Made by a program: the position numbers and the translations under genes. Positions 1,265 through 64,000 of a stretch of 64,000 nucleotides of DNA are shown piece after piece. The DNA comes from Artocarpus heterophyllus (Eukaryota > Streptophyta > Magnoliopsida > Rosales > Moraceae): NCBI GenBank assembly GCA_025403435.1, contig CM046343.1, forward strand, positions 27,186,742-27,250,741. Reading direction: 5' to 3'. Under the pieces are notes generated by a model, which was not told where the DNA came from, did not search any database, and saw only the letters and a program-made list of their open reading frames with translations. Position 1 is the first letter of the stretch; every line of letters begins with the position of its first letter.

Positions 1265-1297
1265 AAGAAATTTCGTCCTCGAAATTTACAACTCATC

Positions 1298-2617: not shown

Positions 2618-2682
2618 CGATCATCTGCATGCACGCTCCATTCCTCGAACTGCTCCCCGTTCTGAATCCGCGACCAAATCCC

Positions 2683-4311: not shown

Positions 4312-4317
4312 TAATCA

Positions 4318-4944: not shown

Positions 4945-4947
4945 CTA

Positions 4948-5889: not shown

Positions 5890-5979
5890 TCTCTCACTTC
5901 TGAAAACAAAATTTGGACTGTCAGAGGTATTTCATTGTCAAACCTATGTGTGCACAATTCCCAAGGTTCATAACCTTGA

Positions 5980-5991
5980 GCTCTGATACCA
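5980..5991 (-). other. Primer-binding site, tRNA-iMet (gypsy)
   Basis: The minus strand reads TGGTATCAGAGC, the complement of the 3' end of plant initiator tRNA-Met. It starts three bases inside the 5' LTR, whose sense-strand end is ...GGCGTGACA. Confidence 0.92.
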
Positions 5992-5994
5992 TTC

Positions 5995-9896: not shown

Positions 9897-12800
9897 CTAA
9901 GTGAGTAAATACTGCAAATTTCGCATCTCCATAGCTTCCACATGCCTCTCGAAGACTCTCCCAGTAAGTGTCTTCGTGAATGGATCACCTAAATTGTCCT
10001 CTGACGCGATCTTGCACACCGTGACATGCCCGCTCTCAACGAAGTCCTTTATCAAATGATACTTTCGATCAATATGCTTACTCTTCTTGTGAAATCTTGG
10101 TTCCTTAGCATTAGCTACCGCTGCACTGTTATCACAATACAATGATACTGCCTTATTCATACCAGGAACTACCTCAAGATCCCCAAGGAACTTGCGGAGG
10201 CACACTGCTTCTTTCGAAGCATCACTAGCCGCCACATACTCGGCCTCCATCGTTGAATCTGAAGTGCAATCTTGCTTCGCACTTCTCCAACTGATGGCAC
10301 CGCCATCTAGAATAAACACAAACCCCGAAGTCGATTTCCTAGAATCCAGATAGGATTGAAAATCCAAATCGGTGTATCCTAGAGGAGTTAAATCCTCACC
10401 CGAATACACAAGCATATACCCTCGAGTCCTTCTCAGGTACTTGAAAATATGCTTTACCGCAACCCAATGGTTTGGTCCTGGATCCGCCTGAAATCGACTC
10501 ACAATCCCGACCGCATAGCTAATATCTGGTCGAGTGCAAAGCATGGCATACATGAGACTACCCACTGCCGAAGCATAAGGCACCTTCTTCATGTATTCTC
10601 TTTCCTCATAAGACTTTGGAGAGTCTTTCTTAGAAAGAGTAATTCCAGACCTAGATGGTTGCCCACCTTTCTTGGAATCCTGCATTGCAAACCTCCTGAG
10701 AATTTTATCTATGTAGCCGGCCTGTGACAAAGCTATCATTTTGTTCTTCCTATCCCGAAAGATCTGGATACCGAGAACAAAATTAGCCTCACCTAAGTCC
10801 TTCATGTCAAACTGCTTGGTCAACCATAATTTGACCGATGACAATGCCCCAACGTCATTGCCAATCAGCAGAATGTCATCTACATAGAGTAGTAGAAAAA
10901 CCACCTTCTCATTCTTGATGTGTTTGTAAACACATGGTTCATCCACATTTTGTGAGAACCCATAAGTCTTGATCACTTGATCAAATCTTATGTTCCAAGA
11001 ACGAGAAGCCTGCTTAAGTCCATAAATTGACTTTAGCAGCTTACAAACCTTACCCTCTTGACCCGCGACCTTGAACCCGTATGGTTGTTCCATATAAATG
11101 GACTCATCAAGATAGCCATTTAGAAAAGCCGTCTTGACATCCATCTGCCAAATCTCGTAGTCGAGAGCGGCAGCTATGGACAAGAGAATCCGGATGGACT
11201 TAAACATGGCTACAGGCGAAAAGGTTTCCTCATAATCGATTCCTTCCTTTTGTGTATAACCCTTAGCTACCAGTCTAGCCTTAAAGGTTTCGACCTTTCC
11301 ATCCACTCCTCTTTTCCTCTTGTAGATCCACTTACACCCTATAGGTTTTACCCCTTCGGGAAGATCCACAAGCTCCCAGACCCGATTAGTCTCCATAGAC
11401 TTCATCTCTATGTTCATGGCCTCTGTCCAGAGTCTTGAATCAACATCCTCCATGGCTTCTGCGTAAGTATAAGGATCCCTGTCATGTTCATCCGGTTCAT
11501 CCAAAAAGACTTCTCCATTGAACATATACCTTTCAGGTTGACGCCCGATCCTCCCACTACGCCGAAGCCCCTGAGGTTGTTGTTCAGGTTTGTTTGGTTT
11601 TTCTACACTGATCGGAATGGTTTCTTTCGGAACCTCCAGAGTACACGGATTACCCCTCAACTCCTCAAGCATCACTTTGCTTCGAGGTTTAAAGTCGTTC
11701 ATGTAACTCTCCTCAAGGAAAGTTGCATTAGTTGAAACCACGACTTTATTTTCCTTTGGGTTATAAAAATAACCCCCTTTAGTCCCTTTTGGATATCCTA
11801 CAAACACGCAAACTTCTGAACGTGCTTCCAACTTATTCAGATCCTTAAACAGGACATGAGCTGGACATCCCCATATGCGAATATGGTTTAAGGATGTCTT
11901 TCGTCTTGTCCACAACTCGTGAGGAGTTTTAGGGACCGATTTTGAAGGCACATTGTTCAAAAGATAACATGCGGTTTGTAGTGCATATCCCCAAAAGGAT
12001 AAAGGCAATGATGAATAACTCATCATGGACCGAATCATGTCCAACAAAGTCCTATTCCTTCTCTCCGCTACGCCATTCTGCTGCGAAGTGCCCGGCGCAG
12101 TCAAATGGGATAAAATCCCATTCTCTAACAAGTGTCCCAAGAACTCATCAGAAAGGTATTCCCCACCTCGATCCGATCGAAGTGCCTTTATGGGTTTACC
12201 CAATTGCTTTTCCACTTCAGCCCGAAACTCCCTGAACTTATCATAAGTTTCGCTTTTGTGGTGCATTAGGTACACATACCCATATCTTGAGTAATCGTCA
12301 ATAAAAGTGACGAAATACTCATACCCTCCTCGTGCCCGGATGTTCATCGGTCCGCAAACATCACTATGCACAAGTTCTAGAACCCCTTCGGCCCTATTGC
12401 CCTTAGACCCGTATGGTCTTTTGGTCATTTTACCCTCCAAACAAGACTCACATTGAGGTATAGATTCCACCTTTAAGTGACTTAAAGGTCCATCCCTTAC
12501 CAACCTTTGAATCCTATTCAGGTTAATATGGCCAAGGCGCAAATGCCAAAGATAAGTCTTATTAGAGTGAGAAGTTTTAAGTCTTTTTGAGTCATTATCA
12601 TTTATCTCAGCATTAAGCAATAGGTCCATCTTAGGTTTGATAAAATATAGATTATTTTGCATCCATCCAGAACAGATAAAAGATTTGTTTTTATGAATCA
12701 CCACTTTTTCATTAAAAGATACCACGTAGGAGTCTTTAAATAAAGAAGATACAGAAATTAAATTCCTTTTAAATTTAGGAACATAAAAACAATCTCGCAA

Positions 12801-13226
12801 AATTAAACTCCTATAATTATCAAAATAAAGATGGACATCTCTCACTGCTTCCGCTGAGACCAAGGATCCATCGCCCATCCGAAGCGTTAAGTCTTCACGA
12901 AGTAGGCTTCTCGTTTCTTTGAATCCCTGTAGAGAAACACAAACATGATTAGTTGCACCGGAATCTATGACCCAGATGTCACTGGATTCCTCAACCAAAC
13001 AAGTTTCTAAATATAGAAGATCACACCTACCTCCCTTGGAAAGGAAGTCCTTGCAATGCTTCTTTATATGCCCGACCTTACCACAGAAGAAGCATTTAAG
13101 CTTCTTTGGGTTCTTCTTCTTCTTCTTCTTGCTCTTGATTGCAGGAGGAATAGAAGACTTGCCACTCTTGGCCCGTTGCTTCTTTCCATTCCCAGAGTTA
13201 GGATTTGAACCAGAAGCAGCTACCAT
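9897..13226 (-). CDS. Ty1-copia pol polyprotein: protease, integrase, RT, RNase H
   Basis: This is an uninterrupted 1109-codon stretch. In order it has: a Lys-rich segment; a CX2CX4HX4C zinc knuckle at residues 45-58; protease motif DSGA at 88-91; a GAG-pre-integrase block LWHLRLGH near 225; integrase core ([27 protein letters not shown]); reverse transcriptase with [11 protein letters not shown]; and RNase H ending [13 protein letters not shown]...KHIDRKYH. Protease-integrase-RT order is diagnostic of Ty1-copia. The frame is continuous with gag upstream except for one amber codon at 13281-13283, so the ATG at 13226 is probably internal to an original single gag-pol ORF. It ends four bases from the polypurine tract. 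Activity is unknown. Confidence 0.93.
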
Positions 13227-13280
13227 ATTGGCCTCTCCACCAGCAGGAGACTCCCTGATCAGCAGTTCAAACTCCTGTAA

Positions 13281-13850
13281 CTATTTCATCAGTTCTGTCA
13301 AGGTCATATCCCGTCTATTGCTTAGATTAAAAGTAGCTCTAAACGGAATAAATTCCTTAGACAGAGTCTCAAAGACCATAGTCATCTGAGTTTCAGCATC
13401 GATGTCGGCTCCATTGGTTTGAGCCTCAGCGAGGTAACCCATGACCAACATCATATGCTCCTTTACAGATGTCCCCGGTCTCTGTCTACAGTTTAAGAGT
13501 TTTCGAAGCGCTCCTTGCCGCTTTGTTATGGCTTGGCGTCCAAACATGTCCTCAAGATTATCCAAGATCTGCTTTGCAGTCTCATAATCTTGATGTTGAG
13601 CCTGCAGCACGTTGTTCATGCTAGCCATAACATAGCAGCGGGCCTGATCATTAGCATCTTTCCAGCGGTCGTACGCTTGGAATTGCTCATTACTTGAGTC
13701 TCCCGTAGGCTCGGGAGGACAAGGAGTTGTCAGAACATATTTCAGTTTCTCAAAGGAAAGGACGATGTCCAGGTTCCGTTTCCAATCATTATAATTCTCA
13801 CTGGTTAATTGGTTCTTGTCAAGTATCGATGATAAAGCATTTTTAGACAT
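13281..13850 (-). CDS. Ty1-copia gag, ended by amber codon in frame with pol
   Basis: The ATG at 13850 begins MSKNALSSILDKNQLT, the usual start of copia-type gag (UBN2/gag-polypeptide family), with the conserved YNDWKRNLDIVLSFEKLKYVL region after it. The frame extends further upstream without a stop, but the gag family start favours 13850. After MTLTELMK an amber codon (13281-13283) ends the product. The same frame then continues through [12 protein letters not shown] into pol. Either this copy is dead by one mutation or pol is made by readthrough; nothing in the sequence decides between them. Confidence 0.88.
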   Translation of the reverse strand: MSKNALSSILDKNQLTSENYNDWKRNLDIVLSFEKLKYVLTTPCPPEPTGDSSNEQFQAYDRWKDANDQARCYVMASMNNVLQAQHQDYETAKQILDNLEDMFGRQAITKRQGALRKLLNCRQRPGTSVKEHMMLVMGYLAEAQTNGADIDAETQMTMVFETLSKEFIPFRATFNLSNRRDMTLTELMK

Positions 13851-15502
13851 TTTGAATCTACAATAAAGAATCATATACCAAACATAAGCAAACACATATA
13901 ATAATTTAGTAAGATAACACAATCATGTAAAATCATACAAATGTGTTTATGTGTCAAAACCTTGAAAATATCACAACCTTACAACGATAATTCCCAACTC
14001 AGAATTCAACAAGCTCCTAGGGGAGTCATGCCAAATTCAATCAGGAACACGGATCCCCTCCTGATTAATATATGCCATCCAGGACCTGTATGATCCAGCA
14101 TATACTAATAATCGTTTCTTTTGGCCATTAATTTTATTAACAGAGCTCCTAGGGGAGGTTAATAATAAAATTAACATGAGTGTATAACCACCGTTTCAAT
14201 ATTTTATCTATGATTTATAATCACCACCTAGGAGTGTGCAACCATAAATCATACTAAAATACCTTATCCTTTCAGAGATCCAATCTGGTACATGATAGAA
14301 ATCCCTTCCTAGGGGTCAGGACCACCATGTTCTGCCTATGGACCAACGATGGAGGCCTTAGGTTCTCTCTTTCAAAACCTTCTCCCACTCAATCTTTTGA
14401 AGTCAAGGTTTTATTTTAAAATTATGCATGAACAATTTTAATATGAGCGGCACTCCCTATTCTATATGACATGTTATCAATATACATGGTAAATCATATT
14501 ATAATGCAGACAAGCAAAGCAATCAAGCAAAGCTACAAGCATAATAATAATAATAACCGTAATATTATGGTTCCACCCTAGAGAATAGAAAATTAAGATT
14601 ACAAGAGAATAATCGAGACATTTATCGATTCTTCATCCTTGAATCCTCAAGCTGTATCCTTCTTCATGTAATATCCATCTTCAAGTCCTCAATCCCGTAT
14701 GAATCGAACACTTCATATTTCCGGTCATATCCAAATTTAATGTTTCTCAGAATCGTCCCAAAAATAAAATTAAAACTGCATTGGAAAAATTGCACCTTTT
14801 CTGGACACCTGGCAGCTCTCGGTCGGTAGTCCGATCTGGGTGATCGGTCTGCCGATCATGGTGGTTCGGCCTGCCGAACATGAAGGTTCGGCCTGCCGGC
14901 AGAGCACCAAAATTTATGCCCCACTGTCGGCTTGCCGGACCGTACGTCCGGCCTGTCGATTTGTGACCTTCGGCCTGCCGAACTGTGAGGTCCGGCATGC
15001 CGATCGAGCAGAAGAAACCTTAATCCAGAAAATACAATTTTAATGCAATTCATCAATTTTATTTTCAACAATTCAAAAACATAAAATTAGAGACTCAGGA
15101 AATACCTGGAGACGCCATCATCAATATTTAAGATTCGACTTCTCGTTTTGTTTTCTCCGAATAATTATTTAATTACAAAATTCTTACAAATTAAAAATTA
15201 AATAACAATTCCTAGACGGAGATGATAGTCCGTCATCTAATTACATGAAAAACCTATATACACATTCTAACCTCTAAGGAACCATAACCGGTATTAATTA
15301 ATTAATAAATAATCAAACAACAATTTAATCAACCATAATTAATTAATAAACATTCACCATATAATCCATGATAACATATATATTATATAGAAACCTAGAG
15401 TGCCATCTCTCTATAAAATTTAATTCAAGCATTGGAGAGATTAAGATCACAAAATTTATGCATATAACATGATCACAAACTTGCAAATTTATGTAAAAAC
15501 CT
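13851..15502 (-). other. Copia untranslated leader
   Basis: About 1.65 kb between primer site and gag has no credible ORF. It contains CTCCTAGGGGAG at 14014-14025 and 14146-14157, with weaker relatives near 14224 and 14307. A cluster of GGCCTGCC-type near-palindromes lies at about 14820-15005. Confidence 0.8.
14820..15005. repeat. Near-palindrome cluster in copia leader
   Basis: Units such as TTCGGCCTGCCGAAC recur with variants (GTCGGCTTGCCGGAC, GGTCCGGCATGCCGATC) about every 20-30 bp. The motif is the same as in the gypsy LTR arrays although the two elements belong to different superfamilies. Confidence 0.85.
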
Positions 15503-19421: not shown

Positions 19422-20920
19422 TTAAATGTTGTCTAACTTGCTTTGCTGGACCGAAATATTCACTTGATCATGATGATGATCACTATCATCGACAAGCCTG
19501 CTCTGATGATCAGTCTCCTCTGCTTGGTAAGTCATGTGGACACCATAAAGCATATAGAACACAGTAATCAAAACCGTCCATATCGCAAATCTTTGAAAGG
19601 AAAGCACCTTAAGGGAGGTCATTAGGAACATATTAAGGAATATAGATAGGGCAGGAGGCCACGGCATGTAGGGCACGGACCATGTCCCGGAAGGGTAATT
19701 AGCTTGGCAATTAGGCACTTTGTAGTGGAAAATACCTATTATGGAGAGAGTGGCCCCACCGAATAGCGGCAGGCCCAGCCACCACGGGTGCTTCCTGTGC
19801 CACGAGAGGGAAAACCCGAGGGCTGCGGAGGAGAGGAGGAAGAGGAAGAGGAGGATTTTGCAGGGAGGGTTGTTGCTGGTGACGACGTAACGGCGGTAGA
19901 TGAGAGCGTTGGCAACTAGGAAGAAGACGACGAGTGTGCCGATTGAGATCATTTGGAGGATTATGTCTAGGTCCACAAAGAGTGCTATTGATGCCGTGCA
20001 AAGTCCTAAAGATGATCATAGGAATTAAAGAGAAACAATATGTCAAAATACGTAGGCGTGAAATGTTACATGCTTTTAAGTTAATTTCTGAACTCAAGAT
20101 ATGTACATACACTATAAAAATATGAAATTTTAGTCACAACAATTTTCAGGACTTTTAGTTACAACAATTTTTAGTAAAACTTTTAATCACAACAAAATAT
20201 TGTGACTAATGTGCAATTAGTCACAAACTTTAGTTTAATTTTCATTGTGACTAAAACTTTTAGCCATGAAGTTTTTAGTCATGAAATGTTTCTGTGACTA
20301 AAAAATCTGTATCTAAAAGTTTTAATCACAATGAAAAAATAAACTAAAATTTGTGATATATATCATTCATAACAAATGTTGTGACTAAAAGTTTTGTTGT
20401 AAATAAAAGTCTAGTTTTTTATAGTGATATTGATCGAATCACATAGTATCGTCATTTTGAATGAGATACCTAGAATTTTAATCAAAGAAAGATTTAAGAT
20501 AAGAAAAATAAATGCATTTAAAAAAAAAATAGAGACAACTAGCGTTAAAAGAAACTAATTGGTTAACACATCATTGCGCTCTGCCAAAAACTCTATCCTA
20601 ATAATGCTAAGATACGCAATATAGATATATTAATTTGCGTGTACGTGAATGTGTATATATGTTATAGATATGTACATTTATGTGAATGTAGGAGTGATTA
20701 AAATCAGTAATGATTCATGATAACTGCATCGACTTCATATATATATATATATAACTAGTGGGGTTTTCTTGTTTTTCTCCTTTTGATTTTTGTTTTGTTT
20801 TTTTTCCCCTTATGATGCTTACAGCTTTATAACAGCTCTTTTTCTGTGCGTGATTTGACTCGTTAAATTGTCATGAAGTCAAAACAATAATAAACACCAA
20901 TTTATAGGGATATTGGCCAC

Positions 20921-20958
<38 letters not shown>

Positions 20959-21748
20959 TTATATATGTATGTACATATTCTTTCCAATGAAATCATGTAC
21001 TCATGTGATGAAAATTAAGCAAAGATAAATAAGAGGCTGTAAGTTTACCAACCAAGGAAGAGTGTAGCGTTCAAGGGTGTGCCAGTTGAAGGATGAACCT
21101 TGGCTAACCAAGTTGGCACCAACCGAGCCCTTCCAATAACACAAAGGTACCTGGCTTGGCCTAACATTGCTACTAGCACAGATGCCACTATTCCCAAGCT
21201 TGCACCTCCCGCCACCACATTCCCTGCCCATTTCCATCCCATGCTTTGGAATGCTACTGAAAATGCTGCGTCTTTATTCTGTGTCAATTGTGTCAATCCA
21301 AAGGAAATTTTCAAAGTTACATATGTATCTAGGAATAGGAGAATTTTCATCGAAGTCATCTCTCAAAACTTACTTTTTATAATTATCCGACATGTTTAGA
21401 TGTAACACAACTTAATAAACATGCAATATGAATAATAATATGGTACTCTTTAAATATGGTATGAATAAACATAATTTTTAAAGTGTAGCATAGCATGTAA
21501 TCTTCTTTTAGGAATATGCATCTATAGTATTATATAATTGTAGAGTTCATGATGAATAACTTTTACGTTTCTTTTCCTATGTGTGTAAAGAATTCGAAAT
21601 TCAACTGTTTTTTATAACTGGTTATAATTAATTTTTAGTTTAGTAATGCTCCATAATAAAGTGAGAAACTTAATGTAAACAAATTTTTATTTGGTGAAGA
21701 CTTATATTAGGTGTTGACTCTCGTGAATTTATTGATTTACGTATGTGT

Positions 21749-21790
<42 letters not shown>

Positions 21791-23901
21791 ATTGATGTTT
21801 CAAGTACTAGTAGAAACAAAAATCAGAAATCAATTTTACACAAAGGTATTGTGTAATTACCATTTTAGACATGCATGTATGTTATTTACATGAACATTGA
21901 TATATATGTACAGAACTGTATACATAATTAGTAATTGGTGTTGATAATTATAATAACTTACCAACTTAGTATAAGGAACCATTAGACTCAAAGACAAGGC
22001 CAAAAGGCAATAAATGACGGAGCTAATGAGAACAGAACCAACAATGCCAATTGGAAGGATCTTTGAAGGATTTTGGATTTCTTCTGCCATTGTTGAAGCT
22101 GAATCATAGCCTATATAGCCAAAGTAGACTATTGCTGCTCCATCAATAATGGGTTTAATCCCAAAAGGAGCTAATCCATTTGGCTTTACCAAGTTTTCCA
22201 CACTCCCTTTGTACAAGCCAGCAATTATTATGAATCCAAAGAAAACCACATGAAACACTGTCATCACCATGTTCAGCAAGGAACTTTCCTTTGTGCTGTG
22301 AATTAATAATAATCACCCACCAAGAAAGAAACACCAGTCACTTTCAAGATCCACTAGAATACAAATATAATACTAATTATTGTGTACATATATATAGGCT
22401 AAAATGTTGATATATAGTAACTTTGAATATTTTTTTAAGAAGAATAATAATTGGGGTAGAGAATTTGATTTCTATTCAAATTAAAATTACTGTTAAACTA
22501 TGTCTACAACAACTTCATACACACACAGATATATATATATATAGATGTAGCACTATGATACAAGAACCAGCATCTATATAAAGATGACAAAACAAAATAT
22601 ATGTATATACATGACACATAAAATAAGTAGTAATTATAAGCTAGCCCATAATTTGATATTCAAATTCGCACCAAAATATATATATAGCCAAACAAAATAG
22701 ATGTATGTTATCAAATTAATAAAGAAAATGAATTAATTGATGATTATGGAGAAAAGCTGAAAGACCTGTGGCATAGGCAGAGAGTGAGGAGGAGAATAAG
22801 GGCAACAGCAGGAAAATCCAACTCATCACAGCCGTCCATCAGTTCTTCCACATGTAGTCTCCAAGCTTTTGCGTCGTTTTCTCCAAACGCAGAGGACAGG
22901 TATTGTGAGAAGCTTCTTGCTGCCCCAGCGTTTGACAATACATACTCCATAAGTATATTTGCTCCAGCAAAATACCCCACAAACTCTCCTGCAACAATTT
23001 ATAAAAGAAAAAAATTTGTGAGTAAAATATAATGAACGCTAATAGCAATTAGTTATCTCCATATATCTAAATTAGTTATTTTGTAATTAATGGCAGAGCT
23101 ATATATAGTCAAGAATAGGCGGTTAAATCTACCTGAATTTTTATTTTTTATTTTTTATGTTTAAATTTGTATATATATTTAGTTGAAATTTATAGTTCGT
23201 CTCCTTTTAAAGTTTGGAATTATATGTCCACCTCGTCACTTATTTTTCTGACTCCGCTACATGTAGAGCTAGTAAATCTGCCATGGAGTTACTAATTATA
23301 TGCCTAATAACATGACAATATTTTATCTCAAAAAAATAAATAAATAACATGACAATATTTCTGATCTCCTCCTGTGTGATTCTTGTTCTAGGGAAGAAAT
23401 AAAATGAATAAATACAAAAACATAAAAAAAAAAAAAAATAATAGTCCAATATAAGTATTTGGTACCAAAGGTCAATCTTAGATAACTGAAGGCACCACCA
23501 GCAACAGGGATTTGAACTGAGAATTCAGCGTAACACAAGGAAGAAAGAAGGGCAGCTATTCCGGCAATGAAGTAAGATATGAAGACGGAAGGACCGGAAG
23601 AAACGGCGACTTCTCCGGTGGCGACGAAGACCCCGACACCGAGCATTCCGCCTAGACCAAGGGCCAAGAGATCATGCCATTTGAGTTTCCTCTTCATGTC
23701 AGCCCCGGACCTTTGCCTCACTTGGTTCAGCTCCTGCTCAGGCGTCCATGTGGCTAGCATTCTCTTCCTAAGCCTGTGGGGTGTTTGGAATAGGGAGTTG
23801 AGATAATTAGAGAAGAAGATATTATTGTTGTTAGTGCTAGTTTGGATATTGGTACTAGCCATATTGTTTGTGAGAGAATGTGTTTTTGTTGGAACTTCCA
23901 T
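19422..23901 (-). CDS. CAT: Cationic amino acid transporter (CAT family), 5 exons
   Basis: Exons: 23901-23466, 22988-22766, 22295-21962, 21278-21053, 20005-19422; together 600 codons with matching phases. CAT proteins are multi-pass APC-superfamily permeases that move basic and other amino acids across plasma or vacuolar membranes. Exon 1 encodes a soluble N-terminus, then KRKLKWHDLLALGLGGMLG (first helix, glycine-rich 82-96) and the conserved IPVAGGAFSYLR. Exon 3 has YFGYIGYDSASTMAEEIQNP, a CAT signature. Exon 5 carries the last helices and a His-rich acidic tail. Wording such as WTPEQELNQVR and SGADMKRKLKW suggests the CAT6/CAT7 group, from memory only. Start at 23901 chosen; in-frame ATGs at 23952 and 23862 are alternatives. 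The exon 4 donor (GTTGGT) is weak. A GA microsatellite lies just upstream. Confidence 0.92.
20110..20426. mobile_element. CACTA-type MITE in CAT intron 4 (317 bp)
   Basis: It starts CACTATAAAAA and ends TTTTTTATAGTG, with ATA flanking on both sides (20107-20109 and 20427-20429), a 3-bp target duplication as expected for CACTA/En-Spm. The interior is an imperfect palindrome of TTAGTCACAA blocks. No transposase is encoded. Confidence 0.8.
20924..20953. repeat. (AT)n microsatellite in CAT intron 4
   Basis: Uninterrupted TA dinucleotides. Confidence 0.95.
21752..21787. repeat. (AT)n microsatellite in CAT intron 3
   Basis: Uninterrupted TA dinucleotides. Confidence 0.95.
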
Positions 23902-23954
23902 GAGATGAGAAGCACAGGTTTGGAGGGGGTTCTTTAAATATACGAATTTCACAG

Positions 23955-51389: not shown

Positions 51390-52632
51390 GAGAATGTAAC
51401 GCCCCTATATGGGGGTTAACAGTTTTTAATGAGATAAAATAAAAATAAATAATAAAAGTAAAACCTTAAAAATAAAATTTGCCCGGGACTTAAATGAAAA
51501 CTCTCAACTCAAAAATAAAAAAATATAAACGATAAATAAACCACAGTTTTAATGTAGCACCTTAAATTTAATAATATAAACTGTTGTCATCATCATTTAA
51601 ACCCTCAACACATTGTAATACAGTCACAGAAAGTAACAATTGATGCTTACATTATCATGAAGAACATTCTCAACGATTGAAGCAGTCCCAATGTAATATA
51701 GTTACATCACTTCCTCAACTATATTTCTCGTAGCCACCTCACACTTAGTGAGTCCTGAAAAGATATAAACATAAGGGAATGAGCAACACTATGCTCAGTA
51801 GAGAAAGCTATTACTCACCTCTATCATTACCACATTAAAATCTGCATGGTTAGTAAGTCACATCATATTTCAGATTATGAGGTTTATTATGATCACATCT
51901 TATGGATACCGTAGTTAATCATTACCAAGTGTCATAATTACACATTTATACAAATATTACCAATCATCATTGTTCCTAGGTATCCATGTTAAATTGAGTA
52001 TCACTCAACTCATCGAAACCCAAGTGGGCGCACTTGATCACCCTATAAACATTCCAAGGGTGTTCCGGTGAGGGGACATCAAGCCCCGAGTCCTCACCAA
52101 ATCAATTCCTGTACAGTGTGTTCTGGGACTTTCAACCCAAGGAAGCGTCATCACCTTCCCCCTATTTTACCTTTTTGGGTATTCATGCCCAAGGACGTAA
52201 CCGTCGCTCTCTTCATGTCTCACAATTTCTCTATATTGAATCATTATTAATAGAGTTAGTTTTCCTAACCATGCTTCTCAATTTATAACATGTGTCAATT
52301 CATTATGTTCATCGTCGTACAATACAAGACGAGTCCATATCATAGTTTCATATGTGATACTCATATAATATCAGTTCAACATAGATATATATATTGCGGC
52401 AAAACAATCAATTTTAATTCTATAAAAACCCTACAAAAGATGAGTAATAGAATCCCTACCTTTTAAGCTTATCAACAGTCTCTTAATCCTGGAATCAATT
52501 AACGTTAGCTCCACACTCCCTTGATCTTGAACTCCAAGCAAAACAGATCCAGTTGTATCTCGCTGTATCTACGAAGCATCCTCTGTAGTGCTCCTCGAGC
52601 GACTATGAATGGCTAGGAATGCTTCCTGGAGA

Positions 52633-52992
52633 TCATACATTCTTGAAAACGTCATTCTGGACTCCGATACTGCTGTTTGAATCGCCTCGATTCGCGTGCA
52701 GTCGGTACCGGATGATTTTCATCGGAGTGGAATTTGCTCGAACGGAGGTCACCATTGCATCCAGAGCATCGAAACGAGTCAGGAGGCGGTCTCGGATCTT
52801 CGATCGGAGGTCCGGATCACAAAATCCCATTTTGGCCTTTGACCGGCCGTTAACCGGCGTTGACCACCGTTGACCGGCCGTTGACCGGCGGCGGTTGGCT
52901 CCGTTGAGGGCTGAGCTCGAGCCTACCCCCCCTAATTTGACCCTTCTGAGTTCAATGCTGATGTCAATTTCATTCAATTCGACCTCTAACAT
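52633..52992 (-). other. 119-codon ORF within LTR (paralogue at 59324-59683)
   Basis: It begins at ATG (52990-52992), is on the element's sense strand, and contains a basic segment and a DALDAMVTSVRANS stretch. The two LTR copies differ by three amino-acid changes and no stops. No domain recognised. It may be a leader ORF or chance. Confidence 0.35.
52839..52886 (+). promoter_or_regulatory. Four TTGACC (W-box-like) motifs at helical spacing, 3' LTR copy
   Basis: TTGACC starts at 52839, 52860, 52870 and 52881, with a mutated unit TTAACC at 52850 filling the gap. TTGAC[CT] is the core WRKY binding site. The unit period is 10-11 bp. The same layout is at 59530-59577. Function is inferred from motif only. 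Confidence 0.55.
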
Positions 52993-53922
52993 AGCAAATC
53001 GAAGACGGAATTCACGGCCACAACCGGCGGCTCCGATCTCCTATCTCCGGCGGAGATACCGTGAAATTGAGGTGGGGGAATTGTTCCCCGACCTCCTCTG
53101 AGTATTTCCCCTACGGTGGGGTAGCTCAACACCGCGTGGAACGGCGGCTCCACCTAGCTCCACGGCGGTGCACGACGGAGATGCCGTTCTCCGTCCTCCG
53201 GCCATCATTTCGTGCAATTGAGGTATCGAATTTCTTCCTCTCGGTCCTCTGAAGGTGTTTGTGCCTTCAATTTGGCACAAAACGGCCTAAAATGGCCAAC
53301 CCAACCTCACCCACGGCGACGGTGGCGGGCGTCTTCGTTCTCCGGCGAGGGGCGGCGGAACGGTGCAATTGACCGAGGGGTCTTGCTCGCCGTCGCCCTC
53401 TGATCATTTTGGCACCGGCGGTGTGCTACACCGCTGCCATATGCGGCGGCTCCGACGACGGCTCCACGGCGGCGACGAGGCAGCTCCGGCGAAGCTGTTC
53501 TAGCCAGAATTGAGCTGGGAAATTGGTACCATATTGTTCCTCTCCTCACACTGAGTCCATAGACACCAAAATCACGTCGATTGGTGGTCGGACGGCCGAG
53601 AAACGATGTCGGGAAAATATGGGTTTCACCGCCACTTTGGGCGGCGCGTGAGCCCTCCTCCGGCGGTGTTTTGGGTGGCACGACACCTCGTTGGACTCAG
53701 CTCAACGAGAGCTTCCCACTGGTATGGGAGGTGTCGAAAAATAACGCCAGAATCTCAAACGAGATTTGAGGAGAAAGAGAGAAAATTCTAGAGAGAGAAA
53801 GAGGAGAGAGAAAGTCTCGAGTTTCTCTCAATTTTCTGATTTTTTTATATATATATATATATATATATACTAAAAATTAATCTAATTACCTTAATACCCT
53901 TAGGGGAATAACGGGTGTCACA

Positions 53923-53936
53923 GCTCTACCCCCCTT
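53923..53936 (-). other. Polypurine tract of cargo-carrying element
   Basis: The minus strand reads AAGGGGGGTAGAGC directly before the LTR start TGTGACACC. Confidence 0.8.
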
Positions 53937-54586
53937 AAAGAAATTTCGTCCTCGAAATTTCAATTCTAGTAATACTAGTAAAAATTATGATTCCAATTCC
54001 GGGTCTAAACCGTTAATGTTGTTTGTCCTCCAAATTTAAGCTATCGTATCTCCACTCATTTACTTGCATAATAAATCTTACTCCTAAATCCCTCAATGAG
54101 AGTATTTCTGACAAGTTTCAACTTATAACACCGTATACTAGTCTAAGAATCTGATCAGGCATACATATTGACCATATCATGATTCCAGTCCTTCATTGTC
54201 CATGGACTGTGATTTACAATCACATTTAAGGAGATTGCCAGAGAAATTTTATCTACTTCATCTTTAGGTTCCTTTTCCTTTTTGAGTAAGGAAAAGTCAA
54301 ATATATTTGATTTCATACCTCAACTAATAAACTAAAACATAATCATAAAACATATATCACAAACACTTCTATTCAAAACCATACATTAAACTTATTCATA
54401 GAGTTATTAAGCGGAATCTCTGGTTGCAAACATACCCGACATATTTTTCATTAAACAGCTATCCTCATGACACAAACATTCAACCCAAATAATATACTCA
54501 TATTTCATATGGAATATCCCCATAACTGACTCTGGTACTTCCACATAATATTAACAGAATATTACACATTACAAACATAATACGGA

Positions 54587-54736
54587 TACGTTTCGAGAGT
54601 ACAAGGCACTCCGTATACCAGCTATCCATATCATGCATGCTTAGAGGATACAAAAACATCGATAAACAAAAGATCGGACCTTAAGAAGGATGCGTTTCGA
54701 GAGCATCAAGTACTCCGTATCCAGCCATCCCGGCAT
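54587..54736. repeat. Two ~45-bp direct repeats in the 3' internal region
   Basis: 54589-54630 and 54692-54732 share CGTTTCGAGAG, then CAAG, ACTCCGTAT and CCAGC/CCATCC blocks in the same order about 103 bp apart, just downstream of the LOG-like ORF on the sense strand. Confidence 0.75.
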
Positions 54737-54865
54737 TAGGCTCAATGAATCTAAAAGATTGAACAACAGCGTACCACAAGAAACACAGAATACAAGGCAA
54801 ACGGTTATTCGTAACACACGAAATACGGACACACATGGCTACATGCCAAAGATAAAACAAAAAGA

Positions 54866-55516
54866 TTACAGATGGAGATTCAAATCAATTGGCCGCTCCC
54901 GGCTTTCCCTTTCCCATTCAAGCTTGGATGTTGCAGTGTCGGATTCTGGATGTATGATTTGCATTTTATCTATCAATTCCTCAGCTGTTGAAGCAGTGAC
55001 AAAGATTTGTCTCTCCGATTCTGTAGTGATGTTTTCTTCCACAGCGTAATCTAGAAATTTCAAAAGACCGTCATAAAAACCCTTTACGTTCAGCAGTCCC
55101 AAAGGTTTGGAATAAAAGCCCAACAATTGCCCACAAGCAACTATAAATATTTCCTCAAGAGTACCTAGACCACCAGGTAATGCTATAAAAGCATCAGAAT
55201 TATAGATTATGTCTTTAAAATTTTTAGGGATACTCCTGACTCCTTCTCCCTTACCTATGGCTTCCTTACAAAGGTTTCCTTCAACTGGAATATGAGGCCA
55301 AATTCTTACATCAGTAGCGTCGCTAGACCTAGCTGCTAGTGCCATATTTACCATCATTTTTATACTACCACCCCCATAGATTATGTTAATCTTCTTGCGT
55401 GCTAGGACTTGCCCTAAGTGATTTGCAGCTTCTAAATAAGCTTTATCTTTTCCAAGGCTGGAACCACAAAAGACACAGACATTCTTTATTTTCTTCGTGG
55501 ACTGGGAGGTAGACAT
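54866..55516 (-). CDS. LOG-like protein (cytokinin riboside monophosphate phosphoribohydrolase family), intronless, cargo of LTR element
   Basis: 216 codons from ATG 55516; the frame is open 13 codons further but without an ATG. LOG enzymes release active cytokinin bases from their riboside 5'-monophosphates. Present are CVFCGSSLGK near the N-terminus (14-23), GGGS (48-51), SDAFIALPGG (107-116) and the hallmark GTLEE (118-122). KPLGLLNVKGFYDGLLKFLD then follows plant LOGs closely. Ungapped comparison with plant LOGs puts Asn99 where these enzymes have the conserved Arg of the QRKA block. The glycine loop after GGGS reads IKMMV instead of IGLMG, so activity is doubtful or altered. Plant LOG genes have several introns; this copy has none, pointing to capture through RNA. 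It lies 650 bp downstream of the cysteine-rich ORF on the same strand. No disabling mutation. Confidence 0.85.
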   Translation of the reverse strand: MSTSQSTKKIKNVCVFCGSSLGKDKAYLEAANHLGQVLARKKINIIYGGGSIKMMVNMALAARSSDATDVRIWPHIPVEGNLCKEAIGKGEGVRSIPKNFKDIIYNSDAFIALPGGLGTLEEIFIVACGQLLGFYSKPLGLLNVKGFYDGLLKFLDYAVEENITTESERQIFVTASTAEELIDKMQIIHPESDTATSKLEWERESRERPIDLNLHL

Positions 55517-55555
55517 ATTTGGTTTATAGAAGTGGTTGCTTAATGTCTGCTCCAC

Positions 55556-56165
55556 TTAGACTTCGGGTTCTACATGAGATTTTAAAGATGAGAAATACAC
55601 AAAAAGGGCTAAAGAGATAGACGAGTAGGTAATGAAAAGGTAATCCAAAGATTTAAACAAAATCTTGTGCGGATAAGAAAGTAAGATAAGGTGATTGATA
55701 GTTTACAGAAAATCTGATTCACTTTTTGAAAAAGATTAGACTCTAATTGTATAGCTTTTGACAATTGAGAACAATTCGACAGAAGACCCTCTTGACACAA
55801 CTGTAGACTTTTTGACAAATATACACCAAGTCTAGAAATTTAATATAAACCACAAATACTGTAGAACTTTTGAAATTTGAGACACAAATCTTGAAATATC
55901 TGGATAAGCTTTTCAAAATTCAAACATATTACTGTACCGTATGTAACGTGTCTGATAAGATAATATATTTTATTATATATATATATATATTTAAGAAAAT
56001 CATAAATTAAATAAGATATTAACACTTACTGTATCAATCTAATAATCACAATTATTTCAAACACAAAAGCAAATATTCTGAGTAAAAGAAAAACACAAAC
56101 TGTTGAACATCAGCTAAAACTGCTTCAAATAAGCAAAGACTAAATAACCTTTATAGAGCGATGAC
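55556..56165. other. Spacer between the two cargo ORFs
   Basis: AT-rich, with a TA tract at 55974-55990. No coding sequence and no polyA trace between the ORFs. Confidence 0.6.
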
Positions 56166-56687
56166 TTATTCCCCATCCAGTTTTCTTATGGCTTGACAAA
56201 CAGGATCTAGAAATACCATATTCCTGAGGCGTTGTCTTTCTGTATAAAATTTAGGCCAGAGTTTAAAAATAGCTCCTTGAACATATCCACTAGGGTGACC
56301 GTGGAGAGGAGGATGGATGCTATCCAAGTTCTCCTTTGAAAGTCCATCCCTACAAAACCTTATTTTATCCTCTCTATTCGTAGACATATAACCAGGTGAA
56401 GTACATTTACCGTTACAATTTTGTCTTCCACATTTGTTACAAGTGACCACGATGGCACGAGCTCTTCTTTTCATTGCACTACGACTGGTACCTGTTCCTG
56501 GTAAACCGACATCTTGACTAAAGTCACTCGGACGGATTTTCCCCTCTATCAACATTCTCACATCACAAGGGATGCCAAAACGCATAAGAATCCACAACCG
56601 AGTAATTCTAGCCTTGTATTTCTTTCTGAGAATCTTTTGGGAGAGTGATGGGAAATACTTTCTCAGGTGTTGGTACTTTGGGTCCAT
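56166..56687 (-). CDS. Cysteine-rich basic protein resembling plant Betaflexiviridae nucleic-acid-binding protein (Viral_NABP type)
   Basis: 173 codons from ATG 56687 (MDPKYQHLRKYF); the frame is open to 56825, but that start adds a hydrophobic stretch of unlikely relevance. The arrangement is: a helical basic N-terminus; a RFGIPCDVRMLIEG block (36-49); a GTSRSAMKRRARA basic patch (66-78); then C83-x2-C86-x4-C91-x3-C95 and EDKIRFCRDGL (106-116). In carla-, viti- and allexivirus relatives this small 3'-proximal protein binds nucleic acid and often suppresses RNA silencing. The order basic patch, cysteine cluster, IRF-x-x-x-G is what I recognise; the call is by pattern, without alignment. It is not a retroviral CCHC knuckle (no His). 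The ORF is intact and precedes the LOG-like ORF on the element's sense strand, suggesting an old viral capture kept as cargo. Confidence 0.6.
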   Translation of the reverse strand: MDPKYQHLRKYFPSLSQKILRKKYKARITRLWILMRFGIPCDVRMLIEGKIRPSDFSQDVGLPGTGTSRSAMKRRARAIVVTCNKCGRQNCNGKCTSPGYMSTNREDKIRFCRDGLSKENLDSIHPPLHGHPSGYVQGAIFKLWPKFYTERQRLRNMVFLDPVCQAIRKLDGE

Positions 56688-58057
56688 GATGAGATGAAAG
56701 AAGAGTAAATAGAAAGGAAAAATTAAGATAGTAAATTGCAGAATCCTAGAATTCCTTCTTCTTTTAGAGAAAAAGTGAACTCGGAGAAATAAGCTCCTAT
56801 GCACAGTAAACGTATTTGTAAACAATAATTAAACCACTGTATATGACACGTATAGAGATCACGTGAGAGAGACAGTGTGAATCAAACTGATTTAGGATTT
56901 GAACTAGGCCCAAATGTTCTTAGTTGAAAATGGTCAAGTTGTTTCGGGCCTTAACACATTTAGAACGAGTTAAATAACAAACATAAAATTGAAAACCAAT
57001 TTGTATAAATCTTAAACCCAATTCAAAGTCCACTATAGATAAAGTTAACTATAAACAGCAAATCTAATTTAACGACAACAAGGATCTTCCTGAATGATCC
57101 AGCAACTCAAATAATTTTGTTTTAATCAAAACCTTATTGAACAATGCATACACCCATATGTTATTCATAATACTTAACATCTATCAATGGATTCATCATC
57201 ATTACTACCAAGGGTTTAGAATGTGACTAACCTTGAAATCAATACGATTTACGTCTTTCAACGTAGACCATATCAACGAACAAAGACACTTGATGTTACT
57301 ACTTAAGAACATCTACAATCCCCACAATTCTACTTATACAATATATAATTTCCTCATATAACAAAACCTTAGGTAACCAAAAGATTCACTGATACACTTA
57401 AATACAATGTACGTAACAAAATATTCCAATTTTGAGATTCATGCATTCTAGACTTTACACAGTCTCAACAGACCAAAAGTCTAACATTTATCTCTCTCAA
57501 AATTCAATACCATGATTCCCAACTTATATCATATTCCTCAAATAAATAGAACTTTTAAGAAAAGATATTGACACTTATGTGCTCCATCGAATCCACACAT
57601 AATCATTACTTAGGTTTAAATCAATTACGAAAAATTTGGCATGTCTATGTCAAACTTTAAAATCAATAAATCAAGCCTTATATTTCTTATTGTTTTTCAC
57701 GAGACAAAAGGCTTTTAAATCCTCGTATCTACACGAATTTCTCATCGTTTATACGAATTAAATATGCTTATAGATCCAAATATTATACGAATCTCTCATA
57801 AGCATTCTACTTATAAACTCATTCCATATAATTATCATTCCCTCATAACTATTAATACTTTCCTTCTATATAATTATTGTACTCATATAACTATTAATAT
57901 TTTCATTCTATGGCCTTTCCATGTTACATCCTTCTAGACTGTATAAATCAATGTGAAGGTTCATTTTGATGATGACAATGAAAATTCAGCTTCAAAACCA
58001 TCTCAAAAATATATTTTTTTTAAAGTGGTGCTACACTCCCTAGGTTAACCGAACCTA
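56688..58057. other. 5' internal region of cargo element, non-coding
   Basis: About 1.37 kb of AT-rich leader between primer site and first cargo ORF. Six frames show no long ORF and no gag remnant. Confidence 0.7.
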
Positions 58058-58070
58058 GGCTCTGATACCA
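58058..58070 (-). other. Primer-binding site, tRNA-iMet (cargo element)
   Basis: The minus strand reads TGGTATCAGAGCC, seven bases inside the 5' LTR. Confidence 0.92.
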
Positions 58071-58077
58071 AAAATTC

Positions 58078-60607
58078 TGTAACGCCCCTATATGGGGGTT
58101 AACAGTTTTTAATGAGATAAAATAAAAATAAATAATAAAAGTAAAACCTTAAAAATAAAATTTACCCGGGACTTAAATGAAAACTCTCAACTCAAAAATA
58201 AAAAAATATAAACGACAAATAAACCACAGTTTTAATGTAGAACCTTAAATTTAATAATATAAACTGTTATCATCATCATTTTAACCCTCAACACATTGTA
58301 ATACAGTCACAGAAAGTAACAATTGATGCTTACATTATCATGAAGAACATTCTCAACGATTGAAGCAGTCCCAATGTAATATAGTTACATCACTTCCTCA
58401 ACTATATTTCTCGTAGCCACCTCACACTTAGTGAGTCCTGAAAAGATATAAACATAAGGGAATGAGCAACACTATGCTCAGTAGAGAAAGCCATTACTCA
58501 CCTTTAGGTTTTTATCATTACCACATTAAAATCTGCATGGTCAGTAAGTCACATCATATTCCAGATTATGAGGTTTATTATGATCACATCTTATGGATAC
58601 CGTAGTTAATCATTACCAAGTGTCATAATTACACATTTATACAAATATTACCAATCATCATTGTTCCTAGGTATCCATGTTAAATTGAGTATCACTCAAC
58701 TCATCGAGACCCAAATGGGCGCACTTGATCACCCTATAAACATTCCAAGGGTGTTCCGGTGAGGGGACATCAAGCCCCGAGTCCTCACCAAATCAATTCC
58801 TGTACAGTGTGTTCTGGGACTTTCAACCCAAGGAAGCGTCATCACCTTCCCCCTATTTTACCTTTTTGGGTATTCATGCCCAAGGACGTAACCGTCGCCC
58901 TCTTCATGTCTCACAATTTCTCTATATTGAATCATTATTAATAGAGTTAGTTTTCCTAACCATGCTTCTCAATTTATAACATGTGTCAATTCATTATGTT
59001 CCTCGCCGTACAATACAAGACGAGTCCATGTCATAGTTTCATATGTGATACTCATATAATATCAGTTCAACATAGATATATATATTGCGGCAAAACAATC
59101 AATTTTAATTCTATAAAAATCTTACAAAATATGAGTAATAGAATCCCTACCTTTTAAGCTTATCAACAGTCTCTTAATCCTGGAATCAATTAACGTTAGC
59201 TCCACACTCCCTTGATCTTGAACTCCAAGCAAAACAGATCGAGTTGTATCTCGCTGTATCTATGAAGCATCCTCTGTAGTGCTCCTCGAGCGACTATGAA
59301 TGGCTAGGAATGCTTCCTGGAGATCATACATTCTTGAAAACGTCATTCTGGACTCCGATACTGCTGTTTGAATCGCCTCGATTCGCGTGCAATCGGTACC
59401 GGATGATTTTCATCAGAGTGGAATTTGCTCGAACGGAGGTCACCATTGCATCCAGAGCATCGAAACGAGTCAGGAGGCGGTCTCGGATCTTCGATCGGAG
59501 GTCCGGATCACAAAATCCCATTTTGGCCTTTGACCGGCCGTTAACCGGCGTTGACCACCGTTGACCGGCCGTTGACCGGCGGCGGTTGGCTCCGTTGAGG
59601 GCTGAGCTCGAGCCTACCCCCCCTAATTCGACCCTTCTGAGTTCAATGCTGTTGTCAATTTCATTCAATTCGACCTCTAACATAGCAAATCGAAGACGAA
59701 ATTCACGGCCACAATCGGCGGCTCCGATCTCCTATCTCCGGCGGAGATACCGTGAAATTGAGGTGGGGGAATTGTTCCCCGACCTCCTCTGAGTATTTCC
59801 CCTACGGTGGGGCAGCTCAACACAGCGTGGAACGGCGGCTCCACTAGCTCCACGGTGGTGCACGACGGAGATGCCGTTCTCCGTCCTCCGGCCATCATTT
59901 CGTGCAATTGAGGTATCGAATTTCTTCCTCTCGGTCCTCTGAAGGTGTTTGTGCCTTCAATTTGGCACAAAACGGCCTAAAATGGCCAACCCAACCTCAC
60001 CCACGGCGACGGTGGCGGGCGTCTTCGTTCTCCGGCGAGGGCGGCGGAACGGTGCAATTGACCGAGGGGTCTTGCTCGCCGTCGCCCTCTGATCATTTTG
60101 GCACCGGCGGTGTGCTACACCGCTGCCATATGCGGCGGCTCCGACGACGGCTCCACGGCGGCGACGAGGCAGCTCCGGCGAAGGTGTTCTAGCCAGAATT
60201 GAGCTGGGAAATTGGTACCATCTTGTTCCTCTCCTCACACTGAGTCCATAGACACCAAAATCACGTCGATTGGTGGTCGGACGGCCAAGAAACGATGTCG
60301 GGAAAATATGGGTTTCACCGCCACTTTGGGCGGCGCGTGAGCCCTCCTCCGGCGGTGTTTTGGGTGGCACGACACCTCGTTGGACTCAGCTCAACGAGAG
60401 CTTCCCACTGGTATGGGAGGTGTCGAAAAATAACGCCAGAATCTCAAACGAGATTTGAGGAGAAAGAGAGAAAATTCTAGAGAGAGAAAGAGGAGAGAGA
60501 AAGTCTCGAGTTTCTCTCAATTTTTTGATTTTTTTTTTTATATATATATATATACTAAAAATTAATCTAATTACCTTAATACTCTTAGGGGAATAACAGG
60601 TGTCACA
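58078..60607 (-). repeat. 5' LTR of cargo-carrying element (2530 bp)
   Basis: The plus strand runs TGTAACGCCCC to GGTGTCACA, followed by the GAGAA target duplication. The TTGACC array is at 59530-59577. This is the LTR that would drive transcription through the cargo ORFs (minus strand) and faces away from GDH. Confidence 0.95.
59530..59577 (+). promoter_or_regulatory. Four TTGACC (W-box-like) motifs at helical spacing, 5' LTR copy
   Basis: TTGACC starts at 59530, 59551, 59561 and 59572, with TTAACC between the first and second, the same as in the 3' LTR. Confidence 0.55.
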
Positions 60608-60612
60608 GAGAA

Positions 60613-61783: not shown

Positions 61784-64000
61784 TGTGTCAGTTAAAATTT
61801 TATTTCACTTAAAAATCTATTCTACATTATTTATTTCTATCTATTTTTAAATTTTTAAAAATTTCCTATATCTATTTAGTATATTAACTAAAATACCCTT
61901 GAAACTTTTAAATTATTTCAAAAATACCATTTGGTATTATATGCCCAAAAGTCTCTTAAAGAGACTTGATTATCATTTACTCTCATCCTTTTTGCCCCCT
62001 CTTTCTTTTCTTTTTCTTCCTTTTGTTTCTTCTTATTTCCTTTATTTTCTTGTCTCACGTCAACTCTTTCTTTCTCTCTTGTTTTCTCTTCTTTCTCTCT
62101 CCCTTGTTTGCTTCAAAATCAAGATCATCAACCCAACTTCAAGGTAATCAAGACAAGAATCCAAGCTTAATTTCTTAGATCTTCCAAAATCACAAACCAA
62201 AGAGCAAAGATTTTTGCAACTAAATCACTATTTTTCTTCAAGCTTGAGGCAAGGTTTTTTTAAGTTAAAACTTTGATCTAAATTTATGTTTTGGCATGAA
62301 ATTTGTAAGAAATGTGTTTTAAATATTTGTGGGCAATTATAAACGTTTTTGAAGCTTAATTTACATTGATCTTTGTTTAAAATTAGTTTTGAACTAGTTT
62401 TGAAAAGTTTTATTTTTAGTTTAGATTTGTATGTTGAGTATGAAAATTTTAAGAAAAATGATCTACATGTGTTTAAGTGTGATATTTCATAGTTTTTATG
62501 CATTTTCTATGTCTTGAAAGTTGATAAAAAGGGTCAGATTGAGTTTTAAAGTTTGAAACCTTCGAAAATGGAAAAACTAGATTTCTAGAAATTTTTCTGC
62601 CGGTAGGCTAGACTTGTGAATTTGCAGGCCGAACCCTGCCATGTTCGGCAGGCCAAACCCTGTAGGTTGGTAGACCGAACTCTGCCAGACCGGTAGGCTG
62701 AACATTACAAATTGGCAGGCTTGCAGAAAGATCTAAAATGTGTAATTTAATCGATAGGCTAGAAGTAACTAATCGGCAGGCCGATCAGGTAGTCCAAACT
62801 CATCTGTTTTCATCGTTTTGTGTTACGAAATGTTCTAAGGATTTCATATTAATAATTATGGCACACTAATAAGAATATATGGTAAATTAACATGATTATA
62901 GAATAGGAATTAAGTTAAAGCATGGCTATTTTATACATCGTAGGATAACGAAGTACTTGAAGCTTGCGTGGTGAACTTAGTATCGTAAGCTGGAAGTTAT
63001 CAACATAGTATTTGCCAAAAGGTAAAGAATCTATTACTCATTTTTTGTGAGGTTTTATAGAGTTAAAATTGGTCATTTACATTGTAAGATATATATTGAA
63101 CTATTATTATATAAATATCGCTTGCGAGACAATAGCGTGAACTCCTGCTGTAATGTACAACGAGAAATATATTGATTTGATACGTATTGAATAAATTGAA
63201 AAGCATGGTTACGAAATATACTCTATACATAAAAGTAGTAATTATGAAAGAAATAGTAAGACGTGAAGAGAGCTGCGGCTACATCCTTAGACACGAACAC
63301 CCTAAAAGGTAAAATAGGGGGAGGTGATAACGTTCCCTTAGGTCGAAAGTCCCAGAACGCACTTTACAGAAATTGACATGGTGAGGATTTGGGGCTTGAT
63401 GTCCCCTCACCATGCACTCTTAGATTGATTGTAGAGTGGTTAAGCGCGCCTATTTGAGTTTTGTTAAGTTTAGTGATATGATATTCTATTGCACGGTGAA
63501 TACAGATGAGCATTATTAAATCCTGAACTAATATGTATATATATATGTATGGAACTTGGTAAGAACAATCATATGGTATCCACCAGAAATGAACATGGTA
63601 ATATTAATGAATAATGTTGAAAACTAACTAATCATGTATGTTTTAACGTGGCAATAATAAAAACCTAAAGGTGAGAAATGATTTTCTCTATTGAGCATGT
63701 TGCCGCTCATTTCCCTATATTTTCATCTTTTTAGGACTCACAAAGTATGAGGTGGCAATAAGAGGTATAGTTAAGGAAGCTAAGTATTTGTATTAAGTTG
63801 GAATCTCTTCTTTTACTGAGAATCTTCTCCTTCATAACGTAAGCAGCATATGCTACTTTCTGTGACTGTATTAAGATATATTGAGAGTTGAAATGATGAT
63901 GATGACAGTTTTATATCATTAATTTAAAAATGCTACATTAAACTATGGTTTATTTGTCATTTATATTTTTATTTTGAATTGACAGTTTTTATTTAAGTAT
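61784..64000 (+). repeat. LTR-like sequence in GDH intron 2, distant relative of the cargo-element LTR, runs past window end
   Basis: 63000-64000 is the reverse-complement relative of the LTR at 58078-60607: shared blocks include GGGGCTTGATGTCCCCTCAC (63392-63411), AAAGTCCCAGAACGCACT, and a run near 63730-63990 corresponding to 58100-58440. The proximal part (61784-62900) differs and holds a GGCAGGCCGAA-type cluster at 62595-62790. TGTGTCAG at 61784 is a plausible LTR start, but uncertain. Sense strand plus, same as GDH. Confidence 0.6.
62595..62790. repeat. Degenerate near-palindrome cluster in the GDH-intron LTR-like sequence
   Basis: Units such as GCAGGCCGAACC, TTCGGCAGGCCAAAC, GGTAGACCGAAC and ATCGGCAGGCCGATC recur at roughly 20-35 bp spacing, more diverged than in the gypsy and copia arrays. 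Confidence 0.75.

Follow-up and report, generated by a model that had tools for sequence, protein, structure and literature searches.

A Gag-Pol-less LTR Retrotransposon Family of Artocarpus heterophyllus with a LOG-Like Frame and a CRP/NABP-Like Frame of Likely Viral Kinship

Results

A complete LTR element with two open frames

The window analyzed here is a 64,000-nucleotide stretch of the Artocarpus heterophyllus genome (assembly GCA_025403435.1, contig CM046343.1, positions 27,186,742 to 27,250,741 of the forward strand). Its right-hand part contains a long terminal repeat (LTR) retrotransposon with two open reading frames (ORFs) on its sense strand. ORF 1 encodes a basic protein resembling the nucleic-acid-binding or cysteine-rich proteins (NABP/CRP) of plant viruses, and ORF 2 encodes a protein of the LONELY GUY (LOG) family. 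The features of the element are as follows.

51395-60607, minus strand: complete LTR element, recognized by its LTRs, target-site duplication, primer binding site, and polypurine tract
58078..60607, minus strand: 5′ LTR, 2530 nt
51395..53922, minus strand: 3′ LTR, 2528 nt
51390..51394: target-site duplication GAGAA, left copy, directly outside the LTR
60608..60612: target-site duplication GAGAA, right copy, directly outside the LTR
58059..58070, minus strand: primer binding site TGGTATCAGAGC; the leader that comes next is common to a gag-pol-bearing relative
56166..56687, minus strand: ORF 1, NABP/CRP-like, 173 aa, with a basic stretch and CX2CX4CX3C
54866..55516, minus strand: ORF 2, LOG-like, 216 aa from the ATG, intronless, with PGGLGTLEE present and MHxRK gone
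53924..53960, minus strand: pre-LTR tract including the polypurine tract, 92% identical over 37 nt to positions 1251-1287 of the gypsy element in the window
53936-53929, minus strand: polypurine tract AAGGGGGG, immediately preceding the 3′ LTR

An earlier note, made from the letters of this stretch, had described the element as structurally complete, non-autonomous, and endowed with two intact sense-strand frames. The LTR alignment and the flanking signals bear out the first point. Both LTRs start with TG and end with CA, and their identity is 98.5% (2525 sites aligned, 39 of them different; Kimura two-parameter distance, 0.0156). The primer site, which we take to be a match to tRNA-iMet, begins at 58070, 7 nt inward of the 5′ LTR on the minus strand. 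The two LTRs, target-site duplication, primer binding site, and polypurine tract of an LTR retrotransposon are all present. That the LTRs differ only modestly, as the note also remarked, is correct but says little, because such a young copy would often retain both frames by chance.

The internal region spans 4155 nt, of which the two ATG frames (173 and 216 codons), both intact, occupy part. An ATG frame of at least 173 codons arose in none of 1000 dinucleotide shuffles of this region (sense strand), the longest being 134 codons.

The claim that gag and pol are lacking also held. Between stops, the element yields 67 pieces of 30 aa or more, and 29 of them (all 28 minus-strand pieces outside the two ORFs and one plus-strand piece) were scanned against Pfam. 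No gag or pol family was matched by any of the 29 at E ≤ 0.1; the sole matches were to HTH_psq (E = 0.03) and Viral_Beta_CD (E = 0.073), in one piece each. Comparison of the element with the proteins of the window's own gypsy and copia elements likewise uncovered no gag-pol remnant (best E = 0.41). The set of gag, protease, reverse transcriptase, and integrase that marks an autonomous Ty3/gypsy element was thus not found here, whereas it is present in a relative (L014) described below. The tract at the 3′ end was considered as code for the last pol residues and dropped, since in the gypsy element of the window this tract comes after the stop of pol.

Copies across the host genome

Whole-genome searches covered the 985-Mb host assembly. 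A 39-nt NABP pattern, with at most three mismatches allowed, was found at 3,232 places (1561 on one strand and 1671 on the other), some of which may be allelic because the assembly may hold both haplotypes or a duplicated genome; the reversed control gave 0. At the protein level, all 150 scored LOG places (the best 150 of 6183 candidates) and all 150 scored NABP places (the best 150 of 5822) were 100% identical and open. For the intergenic DNA of the element, all 40 scored places (the best 40 of 1579 candidates) were 98 to 100% identical.

The two frames travel together. Among the matches listed for contig C1, an exact NABP segment lay at constant spacing and on the same strand for 10 of 10 LOG places. 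Both frames were open in all eight copies chosen by LOG; in 11 copies chosen by intergenic similarity from 39 non-window places, both were intact in 8, LOG in 10, and NABP in 8. Since other genomic copies have both ORFs, the pairing is not the random nested insertion that the earlier note had allowed for.

Two full copies, L032 and L033, have target-site duplications of their own (AAAAC/AAAAC and GCACG/GCACG). Their LTR pairs, ∼1.97 kb long, are identical at all sites compared (1971 and 1963, respectively), and these copies were picked from the LOG-identical list, so they are likely among the youngest. The window copy, with its 2.53-kb LTRs, is older and of a different LTR subtype. Stretch L031 has an internal-LTR-internal arrangement, with primer binding site and polypurine tract at its single LTR, and on contig C9 (G000:C9:16537152-16564415) five LOG places are spaced 6.62 to 6.66 kb apart, with LTRs shared between tandem neighbors in the stretch read. 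Tandem arrays are therefore indicated by this layout and spacing. LTR matches longer than 700 nt were present in 3 of 20 place-sampled 10-kb stretches (L002, L014, and L021), while L003 had a single LTR match (415 nt at 70%) and L011 and L016 had short ones only. For L002 and L021, the absence of an adjoining primer binding site or polypurine tract suggests solo LTRs. Most likely, the copies make up a very abundant, recently active non-autonomous family of Ty3/gypsy type.

ORF 2 encodes a diverged LOG-family protein

The open stretch of the LOG-like frame extends from 55555 to 54866, and its first ATG is at 55516. Its product matches PF03641 (E = 1e−21) and TIGR00730 (E = 7e−38), and the best solved relative, Arabidopsis LOG3 (2a33), aligns to it without gaps, with 82 of 201 residues identical (41%). 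Judged by its sequence, ORF 2 is beyond doubt a LOG-family protein. It has PGGxGTxxE in common with the plant LONELY GUY enzymes, from which it differs in being intronless and in the motif MHxRK: MHQRK of LOG3 aligns with IPKNF, which places Ile, Asn, and Phe where the active-site Met, Arg, and Lys would be. All 12 copies examined have Asn at the Arg position. The score against the NCBIfam equivalog for the LOG enzyme is 85.3 bits, and the cut-off is 300.

In the LOG protein of Corynebacterium glutamicum, according to the accessible part of PMC4979012, Met96, Arg99, and Lys100 belong to the residues that bind AMP and take part in catalysis, and alanine replacements of such residues, S19A excepted, nearly abolished activity. 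By residue spacing, we would read these three as the M..RK of MHxRK. The earlier note had called ORF 2 a cytokinin-activation homologue; the homology to LOG stands, but cytokinin activation appears unlikely because the Met-Arg-Lys active-site motif is lost.

A degenerate pattern for the canonical LOG motif has 12 matches in the host genome, compared with 0 for the reversed control. Three of the matched places were inspected and are multi-exon LOG genes, the main exons of which are mostly ∼70 to 96% identical to LOG3 and ∼35 to 53% identical to the element protein. Therefore, the element LOG is both intronless and far more diverged than these three host LOGs. In IMG/VR, three stretches matched the LOG pattern and none was confirmed as a relative.

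ORF 1 resembles viral NABP/CRP proteins

As in the carlavirus NABP/CRP family (PF01623 and PF05515), a basic stretch is followed in ORF 1 by zinc-finger-like cysteines. The full 173-aa protein matches PF05515 (E = 0.0096) and PF01623 (E = 0.1), both families hitting one segment; with the core, which was excised after the match was known, the values are 0.0052 and 0.016. Neither family was matched by any of eight shuffled NABP sequences, one of which matched another family at E = 0.18. The cysteine cluster is unaltered in 12 of 12 copies (the window copy and the 11 chosen by intergenic similarity). In contrast to the carlavirus proteins, ORF 1 falls below the curated cut-offs and is located in a retrotransposon. 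The plant-virus type proposed in the earlier note is supported only in part, the Pfam matches being sub-threshold, and we regard viral kinship as likely, though unproven. No NABP relative was confirmed among the 10 IMG/VR stretches that matched its pattern. Single-sequence structure models of the two ORF proteins were poor, with mean pLDDT (predicted local distance difference test) values of 35.2 and 43.9 (the LOG model minus its first two residues).

Plant-virus CRPs act in silencing suppression, and one carlavirus CRP is a transcription factor that induces hyperplasia, as given in the accessible part of PMC12172455.

A gag-pol-bearing relative has the same kind of cis sequences

The stretch L014 and its neighbor L030 contain a Ty3/gypsy element with gag-pol in a single frame (1419 aa in L014 and 163 aa in L030). 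Pfam detects gag, protease, RVT_1 (E = 2.5e−39), RNase H, and integrase parts in it; the integrase core, at 26.4 bits, is below its cut-off, as is the chromodomain PF00385 (E = 0.0023; 18.3 bits versus 25.1). Compared by blastn with full copy L032, this relative shares an 818-nt LTR block at 95% and a 210-nt LTR block at 70%; internally, the two match over the first 110 nt, which hold primer binding site and leader (84%), and over the final 39 nt, which hold the polypurine tract (85%). There was no further internal blastn match at E = 1e−3, and neither LOG nor NABP was found in L014/L030 by tblastn (best E = 0.014 over 47 residues, and 2.6). Cis sequences in common with a gag-pol-bearing gypsy element, which characterize a non-autonomous Ty3/gypsy (chromovirus-type) member, are thus present in the family. 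Therefore, its two frames are flanked by sequences of the kind required for copying.

The relative, on contig C1, is partly in tandem too. In LTR type the family is not uniform: two subtypes or more (1.97 and 2.53 kb) exist, which share their 3′ 1.14 kb at 97% and scarcely match upstream. L014/L030 shares only an ∼0.8-kb LTR block well with the family. This mosaic pattern suggests that LTRs may have been exchanged between elements.

Substitutions in the two frames

Substitutions were counted in 12 copies (window plus the 11 chosen by intergenic similarity), with broken copies kept and with NABP of L034 counted over its aligned part, 152-522. The LOG-chosen copies L022-L029 were excluded from the LOG counts because they had been selected for 100% LOG identity. 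Scored against the commonest codon rather than on a tree, NABP has 17 nonsynonymous and 19 synonymous changes (omega of 0.24 to 0.39; P from <0.0001 to 0.0044 for kappa from 1 to 15). Changes found in at least two copies divide 6 to 7 (P = 0.019). Transitions and transversions number 30:4 in LOG and 31:5 in NABP, and the higher kappa values are therefore the fairer ones. In the eight LOG-chosen copies and the window copy, NABP has 12 nonsynonymous and 11 synonymous changes, and these nine together with the first seven intergenic-chosen copies give 23 and 18. The dN/dS comparison advised in the earlier note thus favors constraint for one frame, NABP, which has probably been under purifying selection in the source lineage, but for LOG, the ratio is not robustly below 1. 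Within the family, LOG shows a non-robust trend only; the long gapless divergence from LOG3 is the better argument for that frame.

Other features of the window

A further LTR part and three other features accompany the element in the window.

63017..63998, plus strand, opposite to the element: diverged part of a related LTR, 74% identical over ∼1000 columns and lying at the window edge; the match is confined to its 3′ part
1-8167, minus strand: gypsy element with its primer binding site at 5991, hence a 5′ LTR of ∼2.2 kb (to ∼8160); the 3′ LTR is cut by the left window edge, its visible part being 96.8% identical, and gag-pol is broken into five frames, 1298 to 5889
9897-13922: element of copia type in which a gag-like frame stands apart from the pol frame of 1109 aa; TGGTATCAGAGC occurs at 15515
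∼19422-23952, minus strand: frames that we take to resemble a cationic amino-acid transporter gene

Discussion

We consider it very probable that the element belongs to a trans-mobilized gypsy-type family in which a two-gene cassette, a CRP/NABP-like frame and a diverged intronless LOG frame, stands where the relative has gag-pol. The LOG frame would have been captured long ago from spliced mRNA, and the NABP frame may derive from a flexivirus-like RNA virus.

Several points weigh against this reading. The evidence for the family is genome sequence, and copying in trans by the gag-pol of relatives would have to be taken from the common cis sequences. The leader between the 5′ LTR and ORF 1 (56688-58077, 1390 nt) holds 34 ATGs; simple scanning therefore cannot account for translation of ORF 1. 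The NABP core is under the curated Pfam cut-offs (17.2 bits versus 23 for PF05515; 15.6 versus 20.9 for PF01623), MCM_OB scores comparably on NABP (E = 0.02 with the core and 0.09 with the full protein), and the best NCBIfam match of a longer, 219-aa NABP frame is an unrelated enzyme (E = 0.0011; 18.5 bits versus a cut-off of 430). NABP is broken in 3 of the 11 intergenic-chosen copies, and its fourth cysteine is altered (C95Y) in one of the eight LOG-chosen copies. The treeless substitution counts come from 12 copies, and for LOG they are 21 nonsynonymous to 13 synonymous (omega of 0.46 to 0.73; P from 0.025 to 0.24), or 7 to 4 for changes in at least two copies (P = 0.28).

Parts of this arrangement have precedents. 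To our knowledge, non-autonomous LTR elements (large ones, TRIM, Cassandra, and Bs1) usually have no conserved frames; unlike in those, two frames recur across the copies of the present family. Such large elements, TRIM, Cassandra-type elements, and maize Bs1 likewise lack gag-pol or have transduced genes (for Bs1, see the accessible part of PMC7264820, a review that treats extra frames beside gag-pol), and long tandem arrays are described for Cassandra in the accessible part of PMC7215508. LOG-domain (YgdH) Gypsy consensuses, found via reverse transcriptase, have been published for Citrus sinensis and C. clementina, to which Populus trichocarpa is added when the filter used in the paper is off, as far as the accessible part of PMC9289625 goes; the same part cites Steinbauerova 2011 on LOG elements. 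These are likewise LTR retrotransposons with a LOG-family domain, but they were identified by reverse transcriptase, whereas none was found in the present family, which adds a CRP-like frame. In orchid Ty3/gypsy elements with a functional AlkB demethylase frame, also from the accessible part of PMC9289625, an acquired RNA-related frame was kept through amplification as well; there, the additional frame belongs to elements found by reverse transcriptase, whereas here the acquired frames replace gag-pol. In the literature covered (titles and abstract starts, with most subscription papers outside the coverage), there was no CRP/NABP-like frame in an LTR element and no LOG frame in a gag-pol-less one. 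The novelty supposed in the earlier note is thereby narrowed: LOG-bearing gypsy elements are already known, and what looked unreported is a LOG frame paired with a CRP-like one in an element that lacks gag-pol.

The Citrus and Populus consensuses lend some substance to another explanation, that the family is a deletion derivative of that LOG-bearing gypsy kind and that there is, or once was, a gag-pol parent bearing this cassette. We think this rather improbable, given that the single gag-pol-bearing relative seen is without LOG or NABP and that a gag-pol trace was not found in the cassette element. Two further points count against it: the LOG elements of Steinbauerova 2011 were reportedly termed Athila-like, and Athila has a different primer tRNA.

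Somewhat less probable still is that the cassette is a neutral passenger, captured once, with its frames intact merely from very recent expansion of one or a few source copies. Many copies are indeed very young, since the two dated full copies besides the window copy, both from the LOG-identical list, have 0 LTR differences, so intact frames prove little, and the LOG changes are not robustly distinguishable from neutral ones. The NABP changes, on the other hand, are skewed toward synonymous sites (P of 0.0044 or less), and a drifting frame would hardly survive as the element LOG has, gapless and stop-free over 201 residues at 41% identity to LOG3, the main exons of the three host LOG loci being mostly at ∼70 to 96%. 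A chance landing of an RNA-virus fragment and a host LOG cDNA in one old LTR element deserves almost no credence: plant genomes do contain sequences from non-retroviral RNA viruses (accessible part of PMC3136472), but random nested insertion is refuted by the family-wide copies, with NABP segments by the thousands, a fixed LOG-NABP spacing, and more full copies with their own target duplications.

For the trans-mobilized family with its two-gene cassette, a function can be proposed tentatively. The CRP-like protein might bind the RNA of its own element and then suppress host RNA silencing or escort the RNA to the Gag of a partner, favoring its own RNA; by analogy with viral CRPs this is possible, though short of an even chance. 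If the CRP-like protein did favor its own RNA, this would account for selection being able to see it in a non-autonomous element. The LOG-derived protein would be a nucleotide-binding helper without the normal cytokinin-releasing activity. A bolder version, which we regard as doubtful, would have a retrotransposon that swapped gag-pol for two proteins, one a viral protein that counters silencing and the other a hormone enzyme remade into a helper that binds nucleotides, and that outspreads its gag-pol relatives because both proteins act on its own RNA: a parasite's parasite sustained by stolen counter-defense genes.

Non-autonomous LTR elements are usually regarded as passive templates. A family with more than 3,000 NABP segments, in which gag-pol of its own is absent and a foreign two-gene cassette has been kept, one of its genes showing signs of purifying selection, suggests that accessory proteins can sustain elements of this sort, counter-silencing or RNA escort being the natural candidate roles. 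It makes testable the ideas that a protein of a non-autonomous element may favor the element's own RNA and that viral silencing suppressors may be transferred into transposons.

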